Shown: positions 49,906-63,516 of the stretch, piece by piece | Position numbering within the stretch: position 1 is the first letter of the stretch | Layout: the number at the start of each line of letters is the position of its first letter | NCBI RefSeq assembly: GCF_014203045.1 | Contig: NZ_JACHIF010000001.1 | Location: 806,001-870,000 of the forward strand | Direction: 5' to 3' | DNA from: Prosthecobacter dejongeii | GTDB lineage: Bacteria; Verrucomicrobiota; Verrucomicrobiia; Verrucomicrobiales; Verrucomicrobiaceae | DNA length: 64,000 nt | The notes under the pieces: model-generated | Database searches by the model: none | Seen by the model: only the letters and a program-made list of their open reading frames with translations | What the model was told of the DNA's origin: nothing | Program-made: the position numbers and the translations under genes

Positions 49906-51516
49906 ATGCTCACCCTCCGCGACGTCACCAAGACTTTCAATGCCCGAACGCTGTTTACCGGGGCCAACATGACTGTGAACTACGCAGAACGCGTGGCTCT
50001 CGTCGGCCCGAACGGTGCGGGCAAGTCCACGCTGTTTTCTCTGATCCTGAAGGAGGATGAGCCGGACGCGGGCGAGGTGATCCGCGATGAGTGGACGACC
50101 CTGGGCTACCTGCCGCAGGAGAGCGAGCCGGTGGGCGAGGAGACCATCCTGGATGTGGCCACGGGCAAGGCGGGGCTGATCGAGGAGCTGGAAAAGATCC
50201 TCCGCGAGTTCGAAGAACGCGGCGATGTGGCAGCCCCGGAATACAATGAGGCGCATGCCAAGCACGATGCGCTGAATGATCCGCAGGCCGAGGCGAAGGC
50301 GAAGAAGATCCTGAAGGGGTTCGGTTTCAAGGAAGAGGATTTTAGCAAACCTGCCCGTGAATACTCGGGCGGCTGGGTGATGCGTGCGCACTTGGCGCGG
50401 ATCCTGGTCATCGAGCCAGATCTGCTGCTGCTGGATGAGCCGACCAACCACCTGGACCTGCTGTCCCTGATGTGGTTCCGCAATTACCTGAAGAACTACC
50501 CGGGTGCGATCCTGCTGATTTCGCATGACCGTGACTTCATGGATGAGCTGATCGAGACGGTGTACGAGATCGAAGAGAGCAAGCTGGTGCAGTACCAGGG
50601 TAACTACACGCAGTACCTGACGCAGAAGGAAGCGAACTGGGAGCGCGCCTACCAAGCCTGGAAAAACCAGCAGAAGGAGATCGAAGCGATCCAGGAATTC
50701 ATCGATCGGTTCCGCTCCGTGACCTCGAAGGCGGCGCAGGCGCAGAGCCGCGAGCGCCAACTGGAGAAGATGGATAAGCTGGACCGGCCGCGCCCCTTGC
50801 GGAAGGCCTTCCGTTTCAATTTCCCGCAGCCTCCGCGCGGCGGCCAGCGTGTCATCGCGCTGACGGACATCCATCAGGCCTACGGCGAGAAGAAGATCTA
50901 CCAGGGCCTGGACCTGGAAGTGGAAAAGGGCGAGCGCACCGTGCTGGTGGGCCCCAACGGCGCAGGCAAGTCCACACTGATCAAGATCATGGCCGGCGAG
51001 GTGCCTTTCCAAAAGGGCGAGCGCCGCTTTGGCACGAACATCAAGATGGGCTACTTCTCCCAGCACCGCGCCGATACGCTGGACCCGGAATGCACCATCC
51101 TGGAAGAACTAAAACGCTGCGCCCCTGAGTTGCGTGAAGACGATGCCCGCAGCATCCTGGGTAGCTTCCTCTTCAAGCGTGAAGACGTTTACAAGAAGTG
51201 CAAAGTCCTCAGCGGGGGTGAAAAGAGCCGTCTGAATCTGGTGAAGTTCCTGGTGGATCCGCCTAACCTACTTTTGATGGATGAGCCGACGACGCACTTG
51301 GACATATGGGCCATTGAGGGCCTGATCCTGGCGCTGCAAAAGTTTGAAGGCACACTGGTCTTCATTTCACATGACGTGCACTTCATCCGCAGTCTCGCGA
51401 CGAAGGTGCTGCACATCAATGCCGGGGTGGTCACGCCTTACAGTGGCGGTTATGACTACTACCTGGAGAAGACAGGCGCGGAAGAGAATGCACGCGCGGC
51501 GGTGATCGCAGGCTAG
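49906..51516 (+). CDS. ABC-F family ribosome-associated ATPase
   Basis: The 536-residue protein has two ATP-binding cassettes and no membrane segment, the ABC-F layout. Each has a Walker A (GPNGAGKSTL), a signature (YSGGWVMRAHLARIL and LSGGEKSRLNLVKFL) and a Walker B (LLLLDEPTNHLDL and LLLMDEPTTHLDI). The linker between them (about 240-320) is a charged helical region. Members bind the ribosomal E site to aid translation. The subtype (Uup, EttA or YbiT-like) is not decided here. Start ATG 49906 begins MLTLRDVTKTFN. Confidence 0.94.
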   Translation: MLTLRDVTKTFNARTLFTGANMTVNYAERVALVGPNGAGKSTLFSLILKEDEPDAGEVIRDEWTTLGYLPQESEPVGEETILDVATGKAGLIEELEKILREFEERGDVAAPEYNEAHAKHDALNDPQAEAKAKKILKGFGFKEEDFSKPAREYSGGWVMRAHLARILVIEPDLLLLDEPTNHLDLLSLMWFRNYLKNYPGAILLISHDRDFMDELIETVYEIEESKLVQYQGNYTQYLTQKEANWERAYQAWKNQQKEIEAIQEFIDRFRSVTSKAAQAQSRERQLEKMDKLDRPRPLRKAFRFNFPQPPRGGQRVIALTDIHQAYGEKKIYQGLDLEVEKGERTVLVGPNGAGKSTLIKIMAGEVPFQKGERRFGTNIKMGYFSQHRADTLDPECTILEELKRCAPELREDDARSILGSFLFKREDVYKKCKVLSGGEKSRLNLVKFLVDPPNLLLMDEPTTHLDIWAIEGLILALQKFEGTLVFISHDVHFIRSLATKVLHINAGVVTPYSGGYDYYLEKTGAEENARAAVIAG

Positions 51517-54500
51517 TTAGAGTCCAGCCCCACCTGCACACGGACGAACTTGGCCCTCTGGTGGCCGAGTTCTGGCGTCACCCGGACCTGCACGGTCTCG
51601 GTGAGGCCGTCGTCATTGGGCGTCACAGATTCCTCCACCACATCCTGGCCGGAGGAGTCCCAGTGGGTGAGGTTTTCACTGGTCTCGATGATGTAGTGCA
51701 GGCCGCTGCGCTCAATGTGACGGCGATAGTTGAGGAGCAGGTAGGTTTCCCCGGTGGTGAGGCTCCTCCCCCGAGATGCGTGTGGCAGCATGGCGGGCCC
51801 CTGCGTGACCGCTGGCGGGATGCCCAGGGCGTGATCCAGCAGATCGGCGATGCCATTGCGATTGTTATCCCCAGCGGGATTGGCGATGCGGTAGATGCGG
51901 CTGATGACCGTGGTGGTATTCGGCGGACTGGCGCGGTCTGTCGCCGTGAGGGTAAAGACATTCGCCCCGTCCTGCAACCCTGTGAGGGACTGGTGCCAAC
52001 TCGCATACCCATTGGCACTCGCCACAGGCTGGCCATTGATGGAGACGGAAGCGAGACCGCTGCCTGCATCCGCAGCCGTGCCTGAGATATCTGCACTCGT
52101 CCTGGAAAGGCAGCGGATGACAGGCGTGAGCAGGGCCAGAGCTGGCGGGGTGGAGTCCTGCGTGGAAGCAACGCTGGCTGAGGGAGCGGAATAAACAAAG
52201 GTGGGCAGTGGTAGGTGACTGACCGACCAAGAAAGCGCACCTGCGGCCCCACCTGTCACAGTACTGGTTAGGCGAGCACGCAGTCTGATGGCAGGTATGT
52301 CTGCCCCGCCGGTCAATGCATGCAGATCCGTGCCAGATGGCACGGCCGTGGCGAGAACCTGCCCCGACGGCGCTAAAACATCCACCATGACGGTGGTCTG
52401 AGCAGGCTGGTCCGGACTGAAGAGGAGCGTGCCCCAGCGGTAAAGCGAGGTGGGCTGGATGATGAGCGATTCAAACGTGCCCGCGCTTGCGGAGCCGATC
52501 TCGCTCGAGCTCCAGGTCACCTCGCCCGCTGTCACGGTCTGCTGCCAAGTCTGCGGTGTCACCGTGCTGGTGGCCACACGGCTGCGGGCGCGGTAGTGGT
52601 AGGTCTGCCCGTCCACGAGACCGCTGAAAGTGTAGCCCACCCCAGGCACCCAGGTGCCGATTTGAGATTGGGTAAAGGCAGCGTCTAGGGCGGCCTCCAC
52701 TTGGATTTCCACTCCTGTAGGCACCGCAGGCCAGAGGATCTGATTCGCCAGGCCAGAGGTGAATAGCGGCTCAGGATTCAGCGCTGGAACAGGCACCACG
52801 AGGCCTTCGGGAATCGTGGTGGGGTTGACATCGAAAGGCGGTGAAATTGACACCAGTCCCCCAGGCGTAGTGATGACGAGCACCACGCTGCCACGGGCCT
52901 CGCCCAGGCTCACCGCACCCACCCAGGTGCCCTGCACAAAGGTGATGGGCGCGGCGGGTGTGACGGGCAGTGGGTAAGATCCAGAACGAGCGGTGAGGAG
53001 TGCGGTGCCGTGGTAGGGAATAAGCGCCCCGGTTTCATCCTTGGCCGTCAGGCTTAGCTGGATCGGCCTGCCCTGCACCTGGGGTGAGGCGATGGGACTA
53101 ACCGCGATGTGAGCAGGCTCATCATCCAAGACCTGTACCGCGACACTGCCCCCCAGCAGGCCCGCCGAGCTGACCCGAATGAGCGCGGTCTGCTCGCCAT
53201 CGCGTAGCGCATCATCCACCGGGGCCACCTCAAACGAGACACTCATCTCCCCCGCAGGCAGGATCACGATGGGCGGCACAGTCGCCGCAGAGGTGTCGCT
53301 GGAGGATAACTCCACCACGGTATCCTCACTGCGTGGCCCGGAGAGAGTGAGGGTGACCTCACTGGCCACACCCCCTTCACGCAGTGGGTCAGGTTCCGTC
53401 ATGACGATCTGAGCGCTTTCATTGTCGAGCACTGAAAGTGTAGCAGTGACGGCCTGCATCCCATTCGCACTTGCGGTTAGGCTGATTTCCTGCGCACCAT
53501 CGAGGAAGACATCATCCACGGCCGAGATGGGAAAAGAGGTGCTATTTTGTCCCGCAGGGATCGTCGCCACGCTGCTGTGCACCCTCACTTGGTCAGGGCT
53601 GGCTGAGCTGAGATAAACCGGGATTGGGTTTGCCAAAAAGGACGACATCTGGACCGTGGCTGTCGCGGTGGGGTTCCCCTCCATGACGGATACAGGAAGA
53701 GATAGGTTCAGCGAGGTCACTTCATCATCCAGCACGCGGATGTGGTTGTAGCTGGTGGGTTTAGCCGTGGCAGCAGCGGTGATGATGACGGCTTTGCCCA
53801 GATCGGCGATCTGATTTTGCGGTGCGCTGATGAGAATGGTGGCAGAGGTCTGCCCGGCAGGAATGGTGACGCTGCTCGGCAGGCTGAGGCGTGCCCTCGC
53901 ATTGCAGGTGAAGGTCACGGTCGTGTTGAACAGCACCGGAGAAGCTAGAGACACCTGCACAGGCACATTGAGGCTGCCTTCCATCATCGTGGCTGGCAGC
54001 GCGAAGCCTATCGCACTGGTGGGATTTGCCCGGATAGCAATGCTATCCAGAGCGATGCCGTCGCTGGTGGCCGACTGGTCATCATACTGAGAAAAACGAA
54101 TCTTAAAGGTGGCATTGTAGCTCCAGCCCAGGTGCTGAAGAATGGGGTCCAAATACACGCGAGTGGCCGTGCTAGCGTAGCTGGAAGATAGGCTGACGAA
54201 CGAGGATATTTCATGCCAGGTCACCCCATCTTGACTGATGGCCACGCCATCAAAGTTCGCGGTGGAGCCGAAGGTGCCCAGCGGCCCCATGGGCGAGGCC
54301 GGATGATTATCATCGGAATATTCCTTCGCATACCACTCCACGGAGACATGGCTGCGCCCGGCCAGATTCACCGTCAGCGTGGGGCTATTGCGGACAAAGG
54401 TGCCCGTGGAGGAAGTGGGTGCATCCAGCAGCAGGTGATAGCTGCCAGACTTGGGCGTGTAGCCGGAAACGACTTGAGCCCGTGCGGTAGGGCTGCTGTC

Positions 54501-57500
54501 TGCCGTGCTCCACTGCGGCCCTAAGAGCCCGCTTTCAAACCCCTCAAAGAGCACCAGGTCTGAACCGGTGACCAGAGAAGGAGAAGTGGTGAAAATGGGC
54601 GGGCTGAAACCCACAACACCCGATGGGGCCTGGGCCCGCAGCCAGAGGGTATTCGTGGGTGATACTGGCATGAAAGCCTGCACCCCCGCACTGCCGACGC
54701 TGAAGGATAAAGGAGAATTGACGATGGGCCCCACGTTCTTGAGTTCGTAGTGCAGCAGGGTCGGCAGCTCGTCGCTAATCACAGCCACCGGACCTGTTGT
54801 CTGCGTCCAGGCGAGGGGATCTCCGTGTTGCCCATCGCTGGTGCCGGAGAGCATCCTGGCCGGGGCGGTGGTGCTGCAGCGCACGGTGGGAGCAGCCGTG
54901 GGGACCGCATTCCGAAAGGAGATATCTACCATGAGGTTCTGAATGCCATTGTAGAAAAACGGGCGTTGAAAAGCAGGGTTGGTAGCGTTGACCGCGAAGG
55001 TCGCAGCACTGAACACCGTCGTCCAGCCCCCCTCCTCCCAGGTGGCTCCAGCCAAGGAATCGCGATGGGTATGCTTGAGCCGTAGGGTGAACTGCCCCAG
55101 GGTCTGGCCACTGTCCTGATAACGGCTGAAATCCAGTCGGCCTAACCAACGAGCAAAAGCGCCTAGCTCCTCCGCAGTGTAGAGGATCTGCACACGGGAA
55201 TCACGCGCTGTTGTGTTGTAAACCCGCGAAGTATTCGTGGCGGTGGTGGTGGAGCCCACGGTCTGGGTGAGCGTGGCCATCCAGGTATCCACCAGCGTCG
55301 GCTCCGCATAGCTGGAGACCGTCTGGCCTACATCGTCCACCGCTGTCACGGTGCCTGTGATGGGGGCATCTGTGGGAGTCTGAGTGGGCAGATCTGTCCA
55401 AACAAAACCATCATGCTGCACGGCGTCCACGGCAAACGGTAAACTGGTGCCCGTGCGCCCGTGCGCATCCGTGGCAGTGAAGGTCATGGAGGAAGTCGTA
55501 GCCGAGACCGCTATAGACGCAGTCGCGACGCCGTGAGAAAAATCAGTCCACGTGGCGACCGAAAAAGGCACCGCCCCTACTGCCGAATCAGTGCTGAAGG
55601 CGATGTCTCCCCGATGATTGCTGATGACTTCACCATTCATATCAAAAGCTGTTAGGCTGACCGTGAAGGGCTTATTGCGTTTTTGCGTGCTGCCGATGGG
55701 ACCGAAGGTGTAATGGTCCACCTCATTATCCGCCACCGTGACCGTGCGTGTGGCGGAGGCATAACCCACAGCACTGGCCGCGATCACGACCTGCTGCGTG
55801 CCATCCCGAAGTGCATCATCCACCCCCGTCATGGAGAACTGCACCTGAGACTGCCCTGCTGGAATCATAACAGAACTAGGCATGTCCAATTCCGATGCAT
55901 CACTGTTGGTTAGCAACAGGACTCGATCTGAAACCTGCACGGTGTTAACAGTGGCGGTCAGAACCACGGAGCTATCCCCTTCCCGAGTAAAACTAGGCCC
56001 CGTGAGCAGGATGGCGGGTGCGTCATCATCCACGAGCTGCGTGACTGCACTGGCGGAGACCCAACCGGGCACGGTAGCCGTGACTGTGACAGCCCGTGTC
56101 CCCTCAGCCACGGCATTGTCTGGCATCGCCATCGTCCAGCTCACAGGTGCTGTGCTGCCCGCTGGGAGTGTGACCACCGCAGGCACTGAAAGACTAGCAT
56201 GATCGCAGGCCAGCATCACCTGGACTTCACGCGCAGGCGGGCTGCTGACCTGGAGCTGCCCACTGAGGACGGCGTTGCCCTCAGTGATGAGGCTGGGCAG
56301 AGTGAGTGTCAGCGTAGCACTCTCGTTATCCGTCACTGCCACAGTGGCCACGCCGGGGGCAATGCCAGAGGCGGAAGCGGTAATGCGAACTGTTTGAGTT
56401 CCATCCAGCAAGGCATCATCCACAGGCTGCAGGCTGAAGGTCTGGCTGACTTGCCCAGCAGGCAAAAGTAGGGTCGTAGGAACCAACGCAGCCGTGGCAT
56501 CACTGGATGTAAGCGTCACGCTCATCGCGTGAGAACGAGGTGCATCCAGACGCACGGTGCCTGTGATGGGGGCTGCATTTTCAGCCACCGCCGCTGCCAG
56601 CTCCAGCGTGAACTCGGTCTGCGGCTCGGCCAGAAACTGAATGTCATCCACATTCCAGCCGGAGTAGTTGCCTGCATTCGTCAGAGGCTGGTAGCTCCAC
56701 CGCACCTGCACTCCGGGGTGACCATCCACCACAGTGGAAATGTCATAGTCCATCAACTGCCAGTGATCATCCAACGTTGGATTACTATCGTTGACAAATA
56801 CCTCCCGCCAAGGTCCATCCAGACGACGAACCTCCAGGGTGATTCGATTGTTCGTTAGGCCGGGAGTATTCAGCCATCGCTGAAACCGCAGGCGCGTGTT
56901 TTTATAAGCGGTAAAATCCAGTGCTGCAGAAGTCAGATAAAAAGGGCCTGAAGGAGTGCTGGTGGGATTGCCAGAGAGATTCACTCCATACACTTGACTG
57001 CCCGTTGCCCCTGCGGCGGGATCTGCATATCCACTCCCTCCCGTGGCCTGTCCCCCGTTGCCGCCAGGCACTCCATGCACCCATTCGCCCGTCGTCGTCC
57101 AGCCTGCGGGAGCCTCGTCCAAAGTGAATGAGTGAACCACTGGGGGAGCGATGTAGAGACGCACGCCGATGGGCTGCTTAAAACCCGTGGCCGAATTTTG
57201 AAACACCACTTGGCTGCTGTGAAAACCCGCCTTTTGTGCCCCTGCCTGAAATTGAACAGTGACGACTGTCTGAGCTCCTGGCTGCAAGCTACCACCTGAA
57301 GGCGAACAACTCATCCAAGCAGCGTCACTGCTAGCGGTCCAGGACAGAGGTTCTGCGCCATCGTTGCGAAGGGTCAAAGTCTGCGCGGTTGGGGTAAAAG
57401 AACCGCCTTTATTTCCCATCACATTCCAGCCACTGCGGTCACTGATTTCAAGCGCATCCGGAACGGTGTAGGATTCAGTGAGGCCAGTGGTGGTGGTGCT

Positions 57501-59675
57501 GGTCGGAGCCATGGCCCCATCTCCGAGACCGCGCTTCGCAAAGGCGGTCCAGACCTCTCCTAGATCTTCGGCATGATGCACCCAAACGGCCTGAAGGATG
57601 CCGTCCCGTGCCTGCACAAAGTTGGGATTGGAAGGGCATAATTTCATGCCTTCAGTCACCAAAAAAAGAGCCCGCTCATTGCCAATGGCAAAGCCGTGTT
57701 TCAGAATGAGATTCGCCCGCAGTTCCCATAAAAAAACGCACCACACCGTGCCCTGATAATGCACCTGAGTGGCATCCTGCGTGGCAGCGAAAGTGGGATT
57801 TCGCGGCACTTCGGGATGCCAGTTTACTTGAGTCGGATCAATGTCCCGAAAGGTGTGGGGGTTTTTCCCCATATCGGTGCTGTAGCTGTAACGCCTCGCT
57901 CCATAGTAGTAGTTTTCAGAAAACCAGTCACCGCCCAGGTAACGGGAGTAGCCTCCACGTGCCCAGTTACCATGGGGATTGTCCTGTGCCTCTGCGGTGA
58001 GCGCCATGCCGTAAAAGTCAGACCATCCTTCCCCCATCCCACGCGTGCTGAGGGCTGAAATGGTGACTGAGGGCCCTCCTACCAAACGATTGCTCAAACC
58101 ATGCGCGTATTCATGCAGCACCACCTCTGCCTCGAAAGAGCCATCACGATCAGGGCTGGGGCCCGTCCAGTTAAACATCTGCATGCGCCCGCGCCCACCA
58201 TCCACGGGGGTGGAAAAGTTCGCGTTGTTCGTGCCGGATCCATCTTGGGCCTCCGCATTGACCGGGTCATTTCCCTCTCCACCCCGGCCGAAGTTATCGA
58301 GCTGGAAATTGCCCGCAGCCTCAGTGAAGCCCAAGTCATAGAGGCGATCATGAGCAAAGTTGGTCCAGTAAAAAAGTTGCGTCACTGAAGCATCCTTATT
58401 CGCCCAAGGTTCTTGCGTCAGATCCAACGGAAAGTCGAAGACACGTTCTGGAGAGCCTGTGGTGAGGGGTAGATCGGCCAGGTTATCGGCATTCGCATCC
58501 ACGTAGGTGTCGGTATTGTTGCCACTTGTGGTTAGACTTCCCGCAGGAATCCATCCGCCGGGGGAAGCGAGAGGACTGAGCGCCGTGGTGGTCACATTGA
58601 CACGCTGCACGGGTGCAGGCTGAAGGCTGGATGGTGACTCATGCCCTGGAGAAAATGGTGTGGGGCTTTCCGCGGTAAAGACACGATACGTGGCCTCGGC
58701 ATTGTAGGCGGTGAGTGAGTGACGCACTAGTACTGAGGCCGTTTCAGCATCCACCAAGACCCGATACATCTCCCCACGACTGCGGCTGGTGAGGGTGACA
58801 TCCCAGGCAAGGCGTAGCGTGGTCGCATCCATGGGCACCCAAATCAAGCGCGCCTCGGCATCCGTCAGCACGGCCGCACGGAACCGCTGTTTCCGGTCTG
58901 GCTGGTCCTCGGGTGGCCCCATCGGGCGCACGGCTGTCTCGGCAATCTTTTCCCCCACGTTCTGTCCCGCCGCAGCCACAGCTTGCGCCACCGGCACTGG
59001 CGGGGCAGCCAAGAGCGCTGCGCGGTCCTTTTTGCCAGCCGCTTTTTCCGGCTGCGCTATGAACTGGCTACCGACATTGATGAGCGCGGAAGAGGCCGTG
59101 AGATTCGCCTGGAAAACCGCCTCGAAAATATCAATGCCTTCCAACTGCTGATGCCACACCACTTTGCGACTGTTGCCGCGAGGAATGCTGTAGTCTGTCA
59201 CGCGTCTTGCACGATCGAGCGCCTCAGGTCCATGACCGAACACGTCATGATGCTGCTCAATAAACTTACGAATCGGAGCATCCGCATCTTGAGCTGCTAG
59301 AGAGCTTTGCCCATCGGTCAAAAAGCCCGATGTCGAAGCCACCCATTTGGGAGCTTGCGAAATGGGATCAAAATCCACCGCTAGGTGAGGCACTGCCTTT
59401 TTTAACTGGGCGACGGCACGGGCTCTTTCGAGTGGTAAATGAAGCTCGATCCCTTTTACCAAAGGGCTTCGCAGATCAAACGTGGGAAGCATTTGAGATG
59501 CTGAATCTCCCTTAGATTCGTAGGACAGTGTCAGCGGAGAAGCTTTAGCACTCCTGATTTCCTGTACCTTTTTACCTTCAAGTTTCCGAGGTAGATCAAA
59601 GGTAAACCAAGTCACCACTAGTAAAATCAACACAGCCAGAAGCAAAGCAACGGAATGTGTTGGAACTCTTTTCAT
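51513..59675 (-). CDS. giant secreted M36 (fungalysin-type) metalloprotease with Calx-beta-like repeats
   Basis: The 2,720-residue protein has an N-terminal signal anchor (about 10-28) and a propeptide with an FTP-like region. An M36 catalytic domain (about 350-740) has HEYAH at 521-525 and the third ligand in GMGEGWSDF near 549. A long array of beta-sandwich repeats follows: several are Calx-beta-like (about 1040-1370 and 1830-2150), recognised by LPAGQ...V..VDD...DGTQ.V..TA......A...V.DNE. Others resemble Fn3 or laminin G folds. The end (DNNRNGIADLLDHALG, then a Y.IE.SENL..W segment) is common to large secreted Verrucomicrobial proteins. It overlaps the ABC-F gene by 4 bases at the 3' ends. 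Confidence 0.88.
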   Translation of the reverse strand: MKRVPTHSVALLLAVLILLVVTWFTFDLPRKLEGKKVQEIRSAKASPLTLSYESKGDSASQMLPTFDLRSPLVKGIELHLPLERARAVAQLKKAVPHLAVDFDPISQAPKWVASTSGFLTDGQSSLAAQDADAPIRKFIEQHHDVFGHGPEALDRARRVTDYSIPRGNSRKVVWHQQLEGIDIFEAVFQANLTASSALINVGSQFIAQPEKAAGKKDRAALLAAPPVPVAQAVAAAGQNVGEKIAETAVRPMGPPEDQPDRKQRFRAAVLTDAEARLIWVPMDATTLRLAWDVTLTSRSRGEMYRVLVDAETASVLVRHSLTAYNAEATYRVFTAESPTPFSPGHESPSSLQPAPVQRVNVTTTALSPLASPGGWIPAGSLTTSGNNTDTYVDANADNLADLPLTTGSPERVFDFPLDLTQEPWANKDASVTQLFYWTNFAHDRLYDLGFTEAAGNFQLDNFGRGGEGNDPVNAEAQDGSGTNNANFSTPVDGGRGRMQMFNWTGPSPDRDGSFEAEVVLHEYAHGLSNRLVGGPSVTISALSTRGMGEGWSDFYGMALTAEAQDNPHGNWARGGYSRYLGGDWFSENYYYGARRYSYSTDMGKNPHTFRDIDPTQVNWHPEVPRNPTFAATQDATQVHYQGTVWCVFLWELRANLILKHGFAIGNERALFLVTEGMKLCPSNPNFVQARDGILQAVWVHHAEDLGEVWTAFAKRGLGDGAMAPTSTTTTGLTESYTVPDALEISDRSGWNVMGNKGGSFTPTAQTLTLRNDGAEPLSWTASSDAAWMSCSPSGGSLQPGAQTVVTVQFQAGAQKAGFHSSQVVFQNSATGFKQPIGVRLYIAPPVVHSFTLDEAPAGWTTTGEWVHGVPGGNGGQATGGSGYADPAAGATGSQVYGVNLSGNPTSTPSGPFYLTSAALDFTAYKNTRLRFQRWLNTPGLTNNRITLEVRRLDGPWREVFVNDSNPTLDDHWQLMDYDISTVVDGHPGVQVRWSYQPLTNAGNYSGWNVDDIQFLAEPQTEFTLELAAAVAENAAPITGTVRLDAPRSHAMSVTLTSSDATAALVPTTLLLPAGQVSQTFSLQPVDDALLDGTQTVRITASASGIAPGVATVAVTDNESATLTLTLPSLITEGNAVLSGQLQVSSPPAREVQVMLACDHASLSVPAVVTLPAGSTAPVSWTMAMPDNAVAEGTRAVTVTATVPGWVSASAVTQLVDDDAPAILLTGPSFTREGDSSVVLTATVNTVQVSDRVLLLTNSDASELDMPSSVMIPAGQSQVQFSMTGVDDALRDGTQQVVIAASAVGYASATRTVTVADNEVDHYTFGPIGSTQKRNKPFTVSLTAFDMNGEVISNHRGDIAFSTDSAVGAVPFSVATWTDFSHGVATASIAVSATTSSMTFTATDAHGRTGTSLPFAVDAVQHDGFVWTDLPTQTPTDAPITGTVTAVDDVGQTVSSYAEPTLVDTWMATLTQTVGSTTTATNTSRVYNTTARDSRVQILYTAEELGAFARWLGRLDFSRYQDSGQTLGQFTLRLKHTHRDSLAGATWEEGGWTTVFSAATFAVNATNPAFQRPFFYNGIQNLMVDISFRNAVPTAAPTVRCSTTAPARMLSGTSDGQHGDPLAWTQTTGPVAVISDELPTLLHYELKNVGPIVNSPLSFSVGSAGVQAFMPVSPTNTLWLRAQAPSGVVGFSPPIFTTSPSLVTGSDLVLFEGFESGLLGPQWSTADSSPTARAQVVSGYTPKSGSYHLLLDAPTSSTGTFVRNSPTLTVNLAGRSHVSVEWYAKEYSDDNHPASPMGPLGTFGSTANFDGVAISQDGVTWHEISSFVSLSSSYASTATRVYLDPILQHLGWSYNATFKIRFSQYDDQSATSDGIALDSIAIRANPTSAIGFALPATMMEGSLNVPVQVSLASPVLFNTTVTFTCNARARLSLPSSVTIPAGQTSATILISAPQNQIADLGKAVIITAAATAKPTSYNHIRVLDDEVTSLNLSLPVSVMEGNPTATATVQMSSFLANPIPVYLSSASPDQVRVHSSVATIPAGQNSTSFPISAVDDVFLDGAQEISLTASANGMQAVTATLSVLDNESAQIVMTEPDPLREGGVASEVTLTLSGPRSEDTVVELSSSDTSAATVPPIVILPAGEMSVSFEVAPVDDALRDGEQTALIRVSSAGLLGGSVAVQVLDDEPAHIAVSPIASPQVQGRPIQLSLTAKDETGALIPYHGTALLTARSGSYPLPVTPAAPITFVQGTWVGAVSLGEARGSVVLVITTPGGLVSISPPFDVNPTTIPEGLVVPVPALNPEPLFTSGLANQILWPAVPTGVEIQVEAALDAAFTQSQIGTWVPGVGYTFSGLVDGQTYHYRARSRVATSTVTPQTWQQTVTAGEVTWSSSEIGSASAGTFESLIIQPTSLYRWGTLLFSPDQPAQTTVMVDVLAPSGQVLATAVPSGTDLHALTGGADIPAIRLRARLTSTVTGGAAGALSWSVSHLPLPTFVYSAPSASVASTQDSTPPALALLTPVIRCLSRTSADISGTAADAGSGLASVSINGQPVASANGYASWHQSLTGLQDGANVFTLTATDRASPPNTTTVISRIYRIANPAGDNNRNGIADLLDHALGIPPAVTQGPAMLPHASRGRSLTTGETYLLLNYRRHIERSGLHYIIETSENLTHWDSSGQDVVEESVTPNDDGLTETVQVRVTPELGHQRAKFVRVQVGLDSN

Positions 59676-59864: not shown

Positions 59865-60311
59865 TCAATCAATGAGGTCTAGATCATGCAAAACACGCGG
59901 TGAACGTGAACTTTCATGGCCTTGAGCGAGCCTCAATATCTCCGCATCGCTCTGGAATCCCATGAGGTAAGAGAGCCTGTAACGATGCTGCGAAATCGAG
60001 TGAACAATGCCCCTGGCCAATCGCTGCATGGCTGGGTTGGCTAAACGCGCTGACCAAGCGCGATACTCTTTGAGTGCCCAAAGGCAGGTTACCCACGCAC
60101 CGCCCCCCTGCCAGACCTCTCCGCTATCCGCCATGACGACGATTTCTTGGTCCGCCTGCAAATGCCGGATGCTAGGAAGCCGATGTGCAGCTTCAGGCGA
60201 ATCATAAGGGACAAATTCCAGCCTGACATACGCTGGCTGACGGCTGAGCCACCCCCTGACCTGCGAGCATAAGCCACAATGGGCATCATAGAAGACGGTG
60301 AGGGTTTTCAT
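59865..60311 (-). CDS. DCC family thiol-disulfide oxidoreductase (DUF393)
   Basis: The 148-residue protein has the family mark YDAHCGLCSQVRGWL with the Cys pair C12xxC15 in a DxxCxxC context. DCC proteins have a thioredoxin-like core and are predicted to be disulfide oxidoreductases; partners are unknown. It is the last of a run of small genes downstream of a GbsR-like regulator gene. Confidence 0.85.
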   Translation of the reverse strand: MKTLTVFYDAHCGLCSQVRGWLSRQPAYVRLEFVPYDSPEAAHRLPSIRHLQADQEIVVMADSGEVWQGGGAWVTCLWALKEYRAWSARLANPAMQRLARGIVHSISQHRYRLSYLMGFQSDAEILRLAQGHESSRSPRVLHDLDLID

Positions 60312-60332: not shown

Positions 60333-60755
60333 CTAGCGGCTCTTTACAGGGTAGCGCCGGGCGAGATAAAGGCTGGCCGTGAGGCCGCACACAGCGGCCA
60401 GCAAAGACATCGCAAGGAGGTCGGGCACGTCTGGTTCAGGACTGTTGAGTAAGGAGGGCACAAACAGGGTCAGAAATCCCGCGACACCTCCGGCGAGTGC
60501 AGCCGGTTTGGGGTGTCGCCACCTGGACGTCTCACTCACGCATAGATCCACTGGCAAAAAGACCAGCAACCAAGCTCCGAAAATGACAGCGGCCGTGGCA
60601 CCCACCCACAAAGGCATTTCTCCAGTTACCTTGGGGAGGTGGTCGAAACGAAACTGGTAATGCCCCCACGAAATGAGAAAGGTCACAATATTGCAGGCCA
60701 CCCATCCCCAAAACATGGCCACAAATGTGCGAGAGAACTTGTGCTTTAGTTTCAT
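60333..60755 (-). CDS. four-helix membrane protein of unknown function
   Basis: The 140-residue protein has about four hydrophobic helices (FVAMFWGWVACNIVTFLIS; LWVGATAAVIFGAWLLVFLPV; AALAGGVAGFLTLFVP; LLAMSLLAAVCGLTASLYLA). I do not recognise a family. It lies 21 bases before the DCC gene and after another membrane protein gene, so an operon is likely. Confidence 0.7.
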   Translation of the reverse strand: MKLKHKFSRTFVAMFWGWVACNIVTFLISWGHYQFRFDHLPKVTGEMPLWVGATAAVIFGAWLLVFLPVDLCVSETSRWRHPKPAALAGGVAGFLTLFVPSLLNSPEPDVPDLLAMSLLAAVCGLTASLYLARRYPVKSR

Positions 60756-60821: not shown

Positions 60822-61217
60822 TTATCCGACATCCACTCTCAGCATCGGGGGGACGGGAGGTGGCATGGTGGCGAGCTGGCCACGCCGACGCATCCTGGTG
60901 AAGACCACCAGATTGAAGAAGTGCATGCCCCCCAGCACCAGCAGCACGATGCCCATCTTGCCACTGAGGATTTCAAAGACGCCTTGCGCCCCAATCACAC
61001 TCTCCGAGGTCTTCAGATAAAGCGAAACGAAGCCGATATTGATGAGGTAAAAACCCACGACCAGGAGGTGATTGACACTGTCTGCCAATTCCATGTTTCC
61101 TTGGAAACATTCGACGAGGAAGATGCGCCCATTCTTGTGAAGCGTTCGCGCCACCCAGACGGTCAGGGTGATGGCAAGGACGAGGTAGAGGGCGTAAGTG
61201 AGGGTGGTAGCATTCAT
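60822..61217 (-). CDS. three-helix membrane protein of unknown function
   Basis: From ATG 61217 the 131-residue product has three hydrophobic helices (LTYALYLVLAITLTVWVA; LLVVGFYLINIGFVSLYL; MGIVLLVLGGMHFFNLVVF) and a charged ECFQGNMELADSVNH loop. The first helix begins at the chosen start; an upstream in-frame start lacks support. No family is recognised. It follows the small gene at 61252-61413 and precedes the next membrane gene. Confidence 0.7.
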   Translation of the reverse strand: MNATTLTYALYLVLAITLTVWVARTLHKNGRIFLVECFQGNMELADSVNHLLVVGFYLINIGFVSLYLKTSESVIGAQGVFEILSGKMGIVLLVLGGMHFFNLVVFTRMRRRGQLATMPPPVPPMLRVDVG

Positions 61218-61251: not shown

Positions 61252-61413
61252 TCAAAGAGTGAAAAAGGCCGTGGCACGGTGTTTGGAATGCGCGTCTTCG
61301 GATGGATAAAAAATCGTCCTTAGCAGGCTGTAGAGTGTCTTGGCTAGCCCTTTGGTTGGAGCGAAATTGAGAGGTGCTAGTGGTGGCTTTGTGGGAGGAG
61401 GTGTTTGGTTCAT
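61252..61413 (-). CDS. small protein, 53 residues
   Basis: ATG 61413 to TGA 61252-61254 encodes 53 residues: a Pro-rich start (MNQTPPPTKPPLAPL), a helix (LAKTLYSLLRTIFYP), and a charged end. There is no clear Shine-Dalgarno. Its start lies 18 bases after a palindrome that matches the one at the GbsR-like promoter. It could be the first gene of the membrane/DCC run or only a leader. Support is moderate: the frame is short. Confidence 0.45.
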   Translation of the reverse strand: MNQTPPPTKPPLAPLNFAPTKGLAKTLYSLLRTIFYPSEDAHSKHRATAFFTL

Positions 61414-61431: not shown

Positions 61432-61453
61432 ACTTTCGGTAACTTCTGAAAGT
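61432..61453 (-). promoter_or_regulatory. 22-bp inverted repeat, operator candidate for the membrane/DCC run
   Basis: ACTTTCGG-TAACTT-CTGAAAGT: 8-base arms with one mismatch and a 6-base centre. It lies between the regulator gene and the small gene at 61413. It shares arms and spacing with the site at 61999-62020. Confidence 0.7.
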
Positions 61454-61473
61454 TTATGGCAAAAAAAGAGACA

Positions 61474-61995
61474 TCAGCTTAACAGACGCATGGCCCACTG
61501 AAGGGCTGAGGAGTGTTTCATGCCTGAGACGGTGTCTGAAACCTTCATGCCGAATTCGACGAACTCCTGGAGCTCCTTCATCTGTCGGTGAAAGTCTTTC
61601 CCGGGGCCGCTAGGTTCTTCTTTGGTCTGCTCTGCACAGCTTTTGAGGACCGACAGCGCTGGGTCCAGTTCACGGCGTTTGCGCTCCCGCGCGATGGTGA
61701 TAAACATCTTCCAAACATCCTTCTCAGCCTCAAAGTATTCGCGGCGTTCGCCCTTTTTTAGAACACTGCGCACCAGCCCCCATCCGACCAACTCACGAAG
61801 ATTGGTATTGGCATTGCCACGACTGACCTGGAGGCGTTCCATGATCTCTTCCGTGTGCATGCACTCAGGGGCGGTCATCAGCAGCGCGTGGATTTGAGCC
61901 ATGGTGCGGTTGATGCCCCAGTTGCTGCCGAGGGCTCCCCACTGCGCAATGAACTCCTCTCGCGAGGTTTCCCAATTGGCAGCTTCATCCCTCAT
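61474..61995 (-). CDS. GbsR/MarR-type transcriptional regulator
   Basis: The 173-residue protein has a winged-helix domain (about 25-100) with NRTMAQIHALLMTAPECMHTEEIMERLQVSRGNANTNL, in which the recognition helix is LQVSRGNANTNLRELVGWG. A helical C-terminal dimerisation part follows. The SRGNANTNLREL pattern is typical of GbsR-like repressors. A palindrome overlaps its own promoter and a matching one precedes the next gene, so autoregulation and control of the downstream run are likely. The inducer is unknown. Confidence 0.85.
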   Translation of the reverse strand: MRDEAANWETSREEFIAQWGALGSNWGINRTMAQIHALLMTAPECMHTEEIMERLQVSRGNANTNLRELVGWGLVRSVLKKGERREYFEAEKDVWKMFITIARERKRRELDPALSVLKSCAEQTKEEPSGPGKDFHRQMKELQEFVEFGMKVSDTVSGMKHSSALQWAMRLLS

Positions 61996-61998
61996 CTT

Positions 61999-62020
61999 AT
62001 TTTCAGATTATACTGAAAGT
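61999..62020 (-). promoter_or_regulatory. 22-bp inverted repeat over the promoter of the GbsR-like gene
   Basis: ATTTTCAG-ATTATA-CTGAAAGT: 8-base arms with one mismatch. On the minus strand the centre reads TATAAT, a perfect -10 box, a few bases before the start codon at 61995. A bound repressor would cover the polymerase site directly. Confidence 0.75.
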
Positions 62021-62041: not shown

Positions 62042-62767
62042 TCAAAGTGCCTCAGCACCTGCCAAGAGTTCATCCACTAGGCGCGGCACTTCCACACTGG
62101 CCGAGCCAGCACGACGCTCGGTGAAATGGCTGCTAATCTCAGTTGATTCGAGGTTAATCTCGATCAGCCGCTTAGCGCCCTTCGACGCGGCCTGTCGGGC
62201 AAAGCCTGCGGCCGGGTAAACGACGCCCGAAGTACCGATGCAAATGAAGATATCCACCGTTTCGAGCGCCTGGGTGATTTCCTCGATGTAATAAGGTATC
62301 TCACCAAACCAGACAATGTCAGGCCGCATCTTCCCTGCCTTTTCACAGATGGGGCAAGCCGTAGAGCAATCCAAATCTGCCTCCCAAGGCATGACATTTC
62401 GGCACCAGAGGCAGCGCACCTTCCGCAACTCTCCATGCATGTGGCACAGCTTTTGGGCACCCGCCCGTTCATTCAGGTCATCCACATTTTGAGTCACATG
62501 GAGAAAAGAACCTGGCCAGCCTTGCTCCAGCCTAGCCAGAGCCTGATGCGCGGGATTGGGCTCCACGGTGTGGAGTGCGGCACGGCGTAGATTGTAGAAC
62601 CGATGCACCAATTCGGGCGTTCGGCGAAAGGCATCCGGTGAAGCAACTTCTTCGATTTGATAGCCTTCCCATAAGCCATCCACCCCACGAAAGGTGGGCA
62701 CACCGGATTCAGCCGAAAGACCAGCCCCGGTCAGGACCACTAGATTTGGATGTGTGAGGCCAGCCAT
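62042..62767 (-). CDS. cobB: SIR2-family NAD-dependent protein deacylase
   Basis: Sirtuins remove acyl groups from lysines using NAD. The 241-residue protein has the NAD motif GAGLSAESGVPTFRG, the catalytic His region TQNVDDLNERAG...HMHGEL, and a zinc site of four Cys (CLWC and CPIC). ATG 62767 is given; a GTG two codons earlier overlaps the upstream stop (GTGA) and could also be used. It is co-directional with the membrane-anchored gene upstream. Confidence 0.93.
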   Translation of the reverse strand: MAGLTHPNLVVLTGAGLSAESGVPTFRGVDGLWEGYQIEEVASPDAFRRTPELVHRFYNLRRAALHTVEPNPAHQALARLEQGWPGSFLHVTQNVDDLNERAGAQKLCHMHGELRKVRCLWCRNVMPWEADLDCSTACPICEKAGKMRPDIVWFGEIPYYIEEITQALETVDIFICIGTSGVVYPAAGFARQAASKGAKRLIEINLESTEISSHFTERRAGSASVEVPRLVDELLAGAEAL

Positions 62768-62769
62768 GG

Positions 62770-63516
62770 TCACTTTTTAGGAAGCTGATATTGCGTGGTG
62801 ATCAGCACCTTGCCCGGCGTTTCATTGTCACGGCTGATCATGAGAGTGATGGTGGATTTGCCGTCGCTCTTGGTCCCATTCATGGAGACGGATTCATGGT
62901 CGCCATTGACGATGCTCGTGACTTCATAACCCATGGTTTTGAGCACACCTTCATAGTGCTCTTTGACCTGAGGTACATCGCCATTCACACTCCCGATAGT
63001 CATGCCACCGACGGACTCCGGCTGGTCCACTCGGTAGCCGCCGCCCTCTTGCAAAATGAGGCCTGGATACTGAGGCACCTCGGCCGGAGGAGCCGAGGCT
63101 GCGACGGGACCTGCGGTGATGGTTTTACCATCTGGGCCCTTAATAATGACACCTTCAGTTTGAGCCTTGGAGGCGTCAAAACCATACTCTTCACCTTTGT
63201 CGTTCTTGATGGTGAGTTTCCCCTTTTCCAAATCTTCATAAGAGATGGTGGAAGTTTCACCCGTGGATTTGTTTTTGAAAGTGATCTCTCTTTTGGCATC
63301 GTCCTTTTTCAGGACCTGAATGTCAGGGTTCATTTCCAGAGCCCAGACCGCCGCCTTCGCCGGATCTTCGGCAAAGTTTTTGATCTTGGAAGAAATCTTA
63401 GCCACCAGGAAACCGCCTCCGAGGAACGCGGCGAGGAGCAAGACACCACAGCCCATGCCTGCGATGGCGAGACCGGAAAGACCTTTTTTCTTTTGGGGAT
63501 TTTGTGGATGGCTCAT
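62770..63516 (-). CDS. membrane-anchored protein of unknown function
   Basis: The 248-residue protein has a Lys-rich start, one membrane helix (about 15-42; AIAGMGCGVLLLAAFLGGGFLVA), and a long outer or soluble part with a beta-rich middle (about 65-135; KREITFKNKSTGETSTISYEDL) and a C-terminal domain (about 170-248). No family recognised. Its stop overlaps a possible GTG start of the sirtuin gene, which suggests coupling. Confidence 0.7.
   Translation of the reverse strand: MSHPQNPQKKKGLSGLAIAGMGCGVLLLAAFLGGGFLVAKISSKIKNFAEDPAKAAVWALEMNPDIQVLKKDDAKREITFKNKSTGETSTISYEDLEKGKLTIKNDKGEEYGFDASKAQTEGVIIKGPDGKTITAGPVAASAPPAEVPQYPGLILQEGGGYRVDQPESVGGMTIGSVNGDVPQVKEHYEGVLKTMGYEVTSIVNGDHESVSMNGTKSDGKSTITLMISRDNETPGKVLITTQYQLPKK

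Follow-up and report, generated by a model that had tools for sequence, protein, structure and literature searches.

Two closely similar 22-bp palindromes flank a regulator-like gene in the 64-kb stretch of DNA analyzed here (the window), and they raise the question of whether they are the operators of that regulator and, if so, which genes they control. The answer that we favor, with a probability of roughly 0.87, is that the 61474-61995 protein acts as a dimeric GbsR-type repressor through both palindromes, on its own gene and on an operon for membrane proteins and a DCC oxidoreductase. The gene layout is as the earlier note described it (a GbsR-like open reading frame [ORF], a small ORF, two membrane ORFs, and a DCC protein), and all genes of the locus, 63516 to 59865, lie on the minus strand.

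62770-63516, minus strand: gene, function unassigned
62042-62773, minus strand: SIR2 gene
61999-62020, no strand: putative operator 1, 22-bp palindrome at the regulator's own start codon, predicted from conservation to serve autoregulation
61474-61995, minus strand: GbsR-type regulator (MarR superfamily), 173 aa (MarR_2, CudC/GbsR profile, PDB 1ku9, relatives)
61432-61453, no strand: putative operator 2, 22-bp palindrome between the regulator stop codon and the membrane/DCC operon (conservation)
61252-61413, minus strand: short ORF, 53 aa, first of the operon, with a desaturase-like C terminus
60822-61217, minus strand: small membrane protein of the M151 family, 131 aa counted from a conserved ATG (genus and phylum loci)
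60333-60755, minus strand: small membrane protein M140, 140 aa, fast-evolving (genus loci)
59865-60311, minus strand: DCC1-like thiol-disulfide oxidoreductase, 148 aa, operon end (PF04134, E value = 2e-15)

A 2720-aa ORF with an HEYAHGLSNRL stretch, metalloprotease-like, occupies 51513-59675 on the same strand.

The palindromes in the window and its genome

Both 22-mers were confirmed at their places (ACTTTCGGTAACTTCTGAAAGT at 61432-61453 and ATTTTCAGATTATACTGAAAGT at 61999-62020), and in each of them 7 of the 8 arm positions pair around a 6-base center. When we searched the 64-kb window with ACTTTCRG-N6-CTGAAAGT, allowing up to 3 mismatches, only these two palindromes were returned, each on both strands (4 matches versus 0.72 expected, with 4 reached by 2/100 shuffles). 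A scan of the 6.0-Mb genome with the same pattern, which had been proposed as a check, gave the two palindromes as the only sites with 0 or 1 mismatch. With as many as 3 mismatches allowed, the genome showed no excess (58/54 matches versus 76/68 in the reversed-pattern control). Five other candidates in the genome were inspected; all five have G/C in the center, and three lie inside long ORFs. Because the looser matches showed no clear excess over the control, we rejected a wider regulon in this genome, and the regulon looks limited to the two local promoters.

The same genome has a perfect TTTCAG-N6-CTGAAA with a G/C-containing center elsewhere (L103 at 1501, contig C6:183025). It lies within an open frame of 118 codons, some 100 nt ahead of a longer ORF, and is possibly a third site and more likely a chance occurrence.

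The earlier note had also pointed to a perfect TATAAT, and the minus strand of 61999-62020 does contain it. Among the 31 loci of the same genus it is unique to the window, the others having TTTTTA, AACTAT, TATTAT, and the like at this position, and it is therefore no general feature. A simple promoter scan found a consensus promoter at neither palindrome, and neither was scored as terminator-like.

Conservation of both sites

Matches to the regulator were present in 47/56 relatives. We compared two partly overlapping sets, one of 31 loci from the same genus (the window included) and one of 80 named loci, nearly all from Verrucomicrobiota. Both palindromes recur in 31/31 genus loci, always with one directly ahead of the regulator start codon and the other shortly past its stop codon, ahead of the next gene. 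TTTCA-N8-TGAAA is invariant across the 31 upstream sites, and the mean core scores were 11.3/12 upstream and 10.9/12 downstream (shuffles, 7.3 and 7.2). In the named set, the upstream site scored at least 10/12 in 75/80 loci (shuffles, about 0.4%), with a clear first operator missing in the other 5, and the downstream site scored at least 10/12 in 50/80 and at least 9 in 53/80 (shuffles reach 10 in about 0.3%). Moreover, a search of 53 whole genomes for the exact core TTTCAG-W6-CTGAAA gave 4 occurrences, each of them beside this regulator, compared to 0 for the reversed control.

Across the 71 distinct sites of the named loci, TTTC is invariant and TGAAA nearly so, giving the consensus A(T/C)TTTCAGTA(W)(W)TACTGAAA, in which TTTC-N10-GAAA is nearly invariant and the outer bases vary. 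The best consensus is TTTCAGTA(W)(W)TACTGAAA with variable outer bases, in place of the earlier ACTTTCRG-N6-CTGAAAGT.

Four loci (L093 to L096) encode more distant GbsR-like regulators (31 to 34% identity), and three of these have different palindromes near the start codon: GTTCAG-N6-CTGAAC in L095 and TTTAG...CTAAA in L094 and L096. The regulator gene is followed by a NusG-like gene in L091 and L098.

Family and fold of the regulator

The 61474-61995 protein is a GbsR-type regulator of the MarR superfamily that falls outside the choline equivalog. It matches MarR_2 over residues 34-85 below Pfam's own cutoff (E value = 3e-5) and the CudC/GbsR profile with an E value of 2.5e-12. The latter score, 46.9 bits, is far under the CudC equivalog cutoff of 218, and a choline/betaine regulator was rejected on this ground. 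PDB 1ku9 (Mj223) was the top match by sequence (E value = 6.6e-12) and also came first in a fold search with the AlphaFold2 model of the regulator. The model is a monomer built from 52 sequences (mean pLDDT, 83), a single-sequence prediction having been too poor (pLDDT, 47). It contains an N-terminal winged helix-turn-helix (helices 30-41, 48-55, and 59-72; strands 75-79 and 86-90) and C-terminal helices, the part through which GbsR-family proteins form homodimers. Mj223, which serves the family as its structural template, is thus the best match among solved structures by both sequence and fold; it is an archaeal protein with 24% identity in the fold match. The recognition helix starts S58-R-G-N-A, with the Ser58 codon at 61822-61824. 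Cys120 is kept in 49/52 aligned orthologs but seems to be missing from the cyd-linked Rhizobium protein.

Covariation of operator and recognition helix

Next, we looked into how the half-sites vary with the residue that precedes R-x-N in the recognition helix. Across all regulators compared, Ser at this position was paired with an A as the fifth base in 200/212 half-sites, and Ala with a T there in 71/80, Ala-type homologs carrying TTTCTG...CAGAAA in place of the TTTCAG type. On a quick tree with long branches, computed with the residue before R-x-N masked, the residue and the operator base each change twice and in step, and the covariation rests on these two changes; the cyd-linked Ser proteins are nested inside the Ala clade. 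The palindrome does follow the 61474-61995 protein, and the covariation ties the predicted operator to its regulator. A one-residue specificity rule, in which Ser would select TTTCA and Ala TTTCT, is put forward as a hypothesis, two evolutionary events being few.

Comparison with known GbsR-type systems

Xia et al. described CydE of Alishewanella sp. WH16-1, a GbsR-type protein that represses cytochrome bd, controlling cydAB with sulfate as the inducer, and obtained a DNase footprint on TATTTCAGAAATTTCTGAAAGTTCA (PMC6096048). This site shares the TTTCAG-N6-CTGAAA core, both half-sites and spacing, with the window palindromes; a second footprinted CydE site is unrelated in sequence (PMC6096048). 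CydE-type genes beside cydDCAB in Rhizobium and Chelatococcus have TTTCAGAAATTTCTGAAA in front. The cydDCAB-linked plasmid homologs share about 40 to 44% identity with the window protein across the matched part, and their recognition helix has Ser ahead of R-x-N. The window system differs in that no cyd genes adjoin its regulator, the neighbors being SIR2, membrane proteins, and DCC, and in that the cyd-linked plasmid proteins and the window clade stand on opposite sides of a starred branch of the tree.

The Firmicutes proteins GbsR, OpcR, OpuAR, and CudC are choline and glycine-betaine repressors (PMC6207618, PMC7396694). The osmostress subgroup of GbsR, OpuAR, and CudC is marked by an aromatic cage near the interdomain linker. 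All four share with the window protein a fold family and, as predicted for the window, repress via an A/T-rich inverted repeat near the promoter, but their targets are betaine synthesis or osmolyte transport, and the half-sites of Bacillus subtilis GbsR lie 4 bp apart rather than around a 6-base center. CioR of Chromobacterium violaceum is likewise a GbsR-type repressor, and it differs in controlling a cytochrome bd (PMC11837568).

Proposed mechanism and alternatives

That the palindromes are operators of the adjacent GbsR-type regulator, with one autoregulatory and the other acting on the membrane/DCC run, as the earlier note proposed, is supported by their recurrence (31/31; 75/80 and 53/80), the identity of the core with the CydE footprint, and the covariation. 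In the mechanism that these comparisons suggest, the 61474-61995 protein would be a winged-helix repressor that dimerizes and places one recognition helix on each TTTCAG half-site, so that the dimer would span TTTCAG-N6-CTGAAA. At 61999-62020, where the site abuts the start codon and spans the likely -10 region, it would repress its own gene; at 61432-61453, it would repress the operon 61413-59865, which consists of the short ORF and the genes for the two membrane proteins and the DCC oxidoreductase. A signal would free the repressor, and both units would then come on together. The promoter positions, including the cover of the -10 region by the first site, are presumptive. As to the signal, our guess that it is redox or lipid related comes from the conserved Cys120 and from the presence of DCC, desaturase, and acyltransferase genes among those of the operons.

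We infer repression rather than activation because the characterized GbsR-type regulators are repressors: all four counted as studied in PMC6207618 and also CioR (PMC11837568). The most durable alternative, which we nevertheless judge improbable, keeps the palindromes as the regulator's sites and makes the regulator an activator or dual regulator of the membrane/DCC operon. Activators do exist in the MarR superfamily (PMC6207618), and the second site overlaps no consensus promoter in the simple scan, but this reading has to contend with those repressing homologs and with the position of the first site, which adjoins the start codon and takes in the likely -10 region, a placement that fits repression.

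It is far less probable that another transcription factor owns the palindromes and happens to control both promoters. Binding of the regulator to them is a prediction, which leaves room for such a factor; the sites, however, track the regulator gene across the phylum, the exact core is absent elsewhere in the relatives' genomes, the half-site base tracks the recognition-helix residue, and the core is identical to the site footprinted for the homolog CydE (PMC6096048). Slighter still is the case for RNA hairpins, attenuator or terminator-like, in place of operators: RNA could fold into a 6- to 8-bp stem around a 6-base loop, and a T-rich stretch follows the regulator stop codon in many loci, but the first site stands directly before the start codon, where there would be little leader RNA, neither site was called terminator-like, and the CydE core is protein-bound DNA (PMC6096048). 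Chance resemblance of two short palindromes, for which one could cite the 2/100 window shuffles with an equal number of loose matches, is refuted by the conservation seen in all 31 genus loci and in the wider phylum and carries negligible weight.

For the repressor acting at both sites, a wider and more speculative reading, which we think rather less likely to hold than to fail, joins three elements: a phylum-wide Verrucomicrobiota repressor whose target, a membrane operon with desaturase, MBOAT acyltransferase, small membrane proteins, SDR, DUF2071, and DCC, is undescribed, the choice between Ser58/TTTCA and Ala/TTTCT, and a Cys120/DCC thiol-redox switch of membrane lipids. If it is true, a single residue of the recognition helix, Ser58 here, would for the most part decide which operator a GbsR-family protein selects, and Cys120 together with the DCC oxidoreductase would make the regulator a thiol-redox switch of membrane lipid composition.

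The predicted target operon

The system is ordinary in kind and well supported, and its target operon is undescribed in the literature that we searched. Those searches found no description of a GbsR-type regulator in Verrucomicrobiota and nothing relevant on GbsR with Verrucomicrobia or with the operon families; a search on a light/photolyase link, including a heliorhodopsin paper, gave nothing bearing on the regulator or operon. The locus would supply an operator, a regulator, and a target operon for Verrucomicrobiota, linked to a footprinted site in Proteobacteria, together with a specificity rule that can be tested and a handle on an uncharacterized membrane operon whose components (M151, small membrane proteins, DCC, and SDR) have no assigned pathway.

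In the genus, the operons after the second site contain a fatty-acid desaturase (PF00487), MBOAT_2, small membrane proteins, M151, M140, and DCC, the last being kept at the operon end; operons elsewhere contain DCC, M151, MBOAT, an SDR of TIGR01777/DUF1731, and DUF2071. The M151 protein (60822-61217), which has no Pfam match, is found in nearly all genus loci and many phylum loci, and the M140 protein (60333-60755), with no Pfam match above the cutoff, has a counterpart at the equivalent position in most genus loci (33 to 45% identity). The window operon is a reduced form of this larger membrane operon. The 53-aa ORF at 61252-61413 is probably the shrunken remnant of the desaturase gene that stands there in relatives, since its C terminus, RATAFFTL, resembles the desaturase tails RAATFFTL (L052) and RATTFFTL (L055) and the window's genome has no close desaturase elsewhere, only one at 25% identity. 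L050 and L051 have comparable short ORFs (53 and 69 aa) at the equivalent position.

SIR2 and the 62770-63516 gene were rejected as targets, as they stand upstream in few relatives only. Where an SDR gene comes directly after the regulator, the second operator was present in 8/8 loci with a gap of 68 to 106 nt and in 0/8 with a gap of 7 to 28 nt, as expected if the second site marks a separate promoter. Across all first genes, a simple near/far gap rule for the second operator was weak (P value = 0.018) because the estimates of the M151 start are rough.

Variants of the operon were also seen. In L084 and L087, whose operons follow Ala-type regulators, a single protein combines the DCC and MBOAT domains (for L087, Pfam shows this), and in L069, L075, and L076 the M140 membrane gene is duplicated within the operon.
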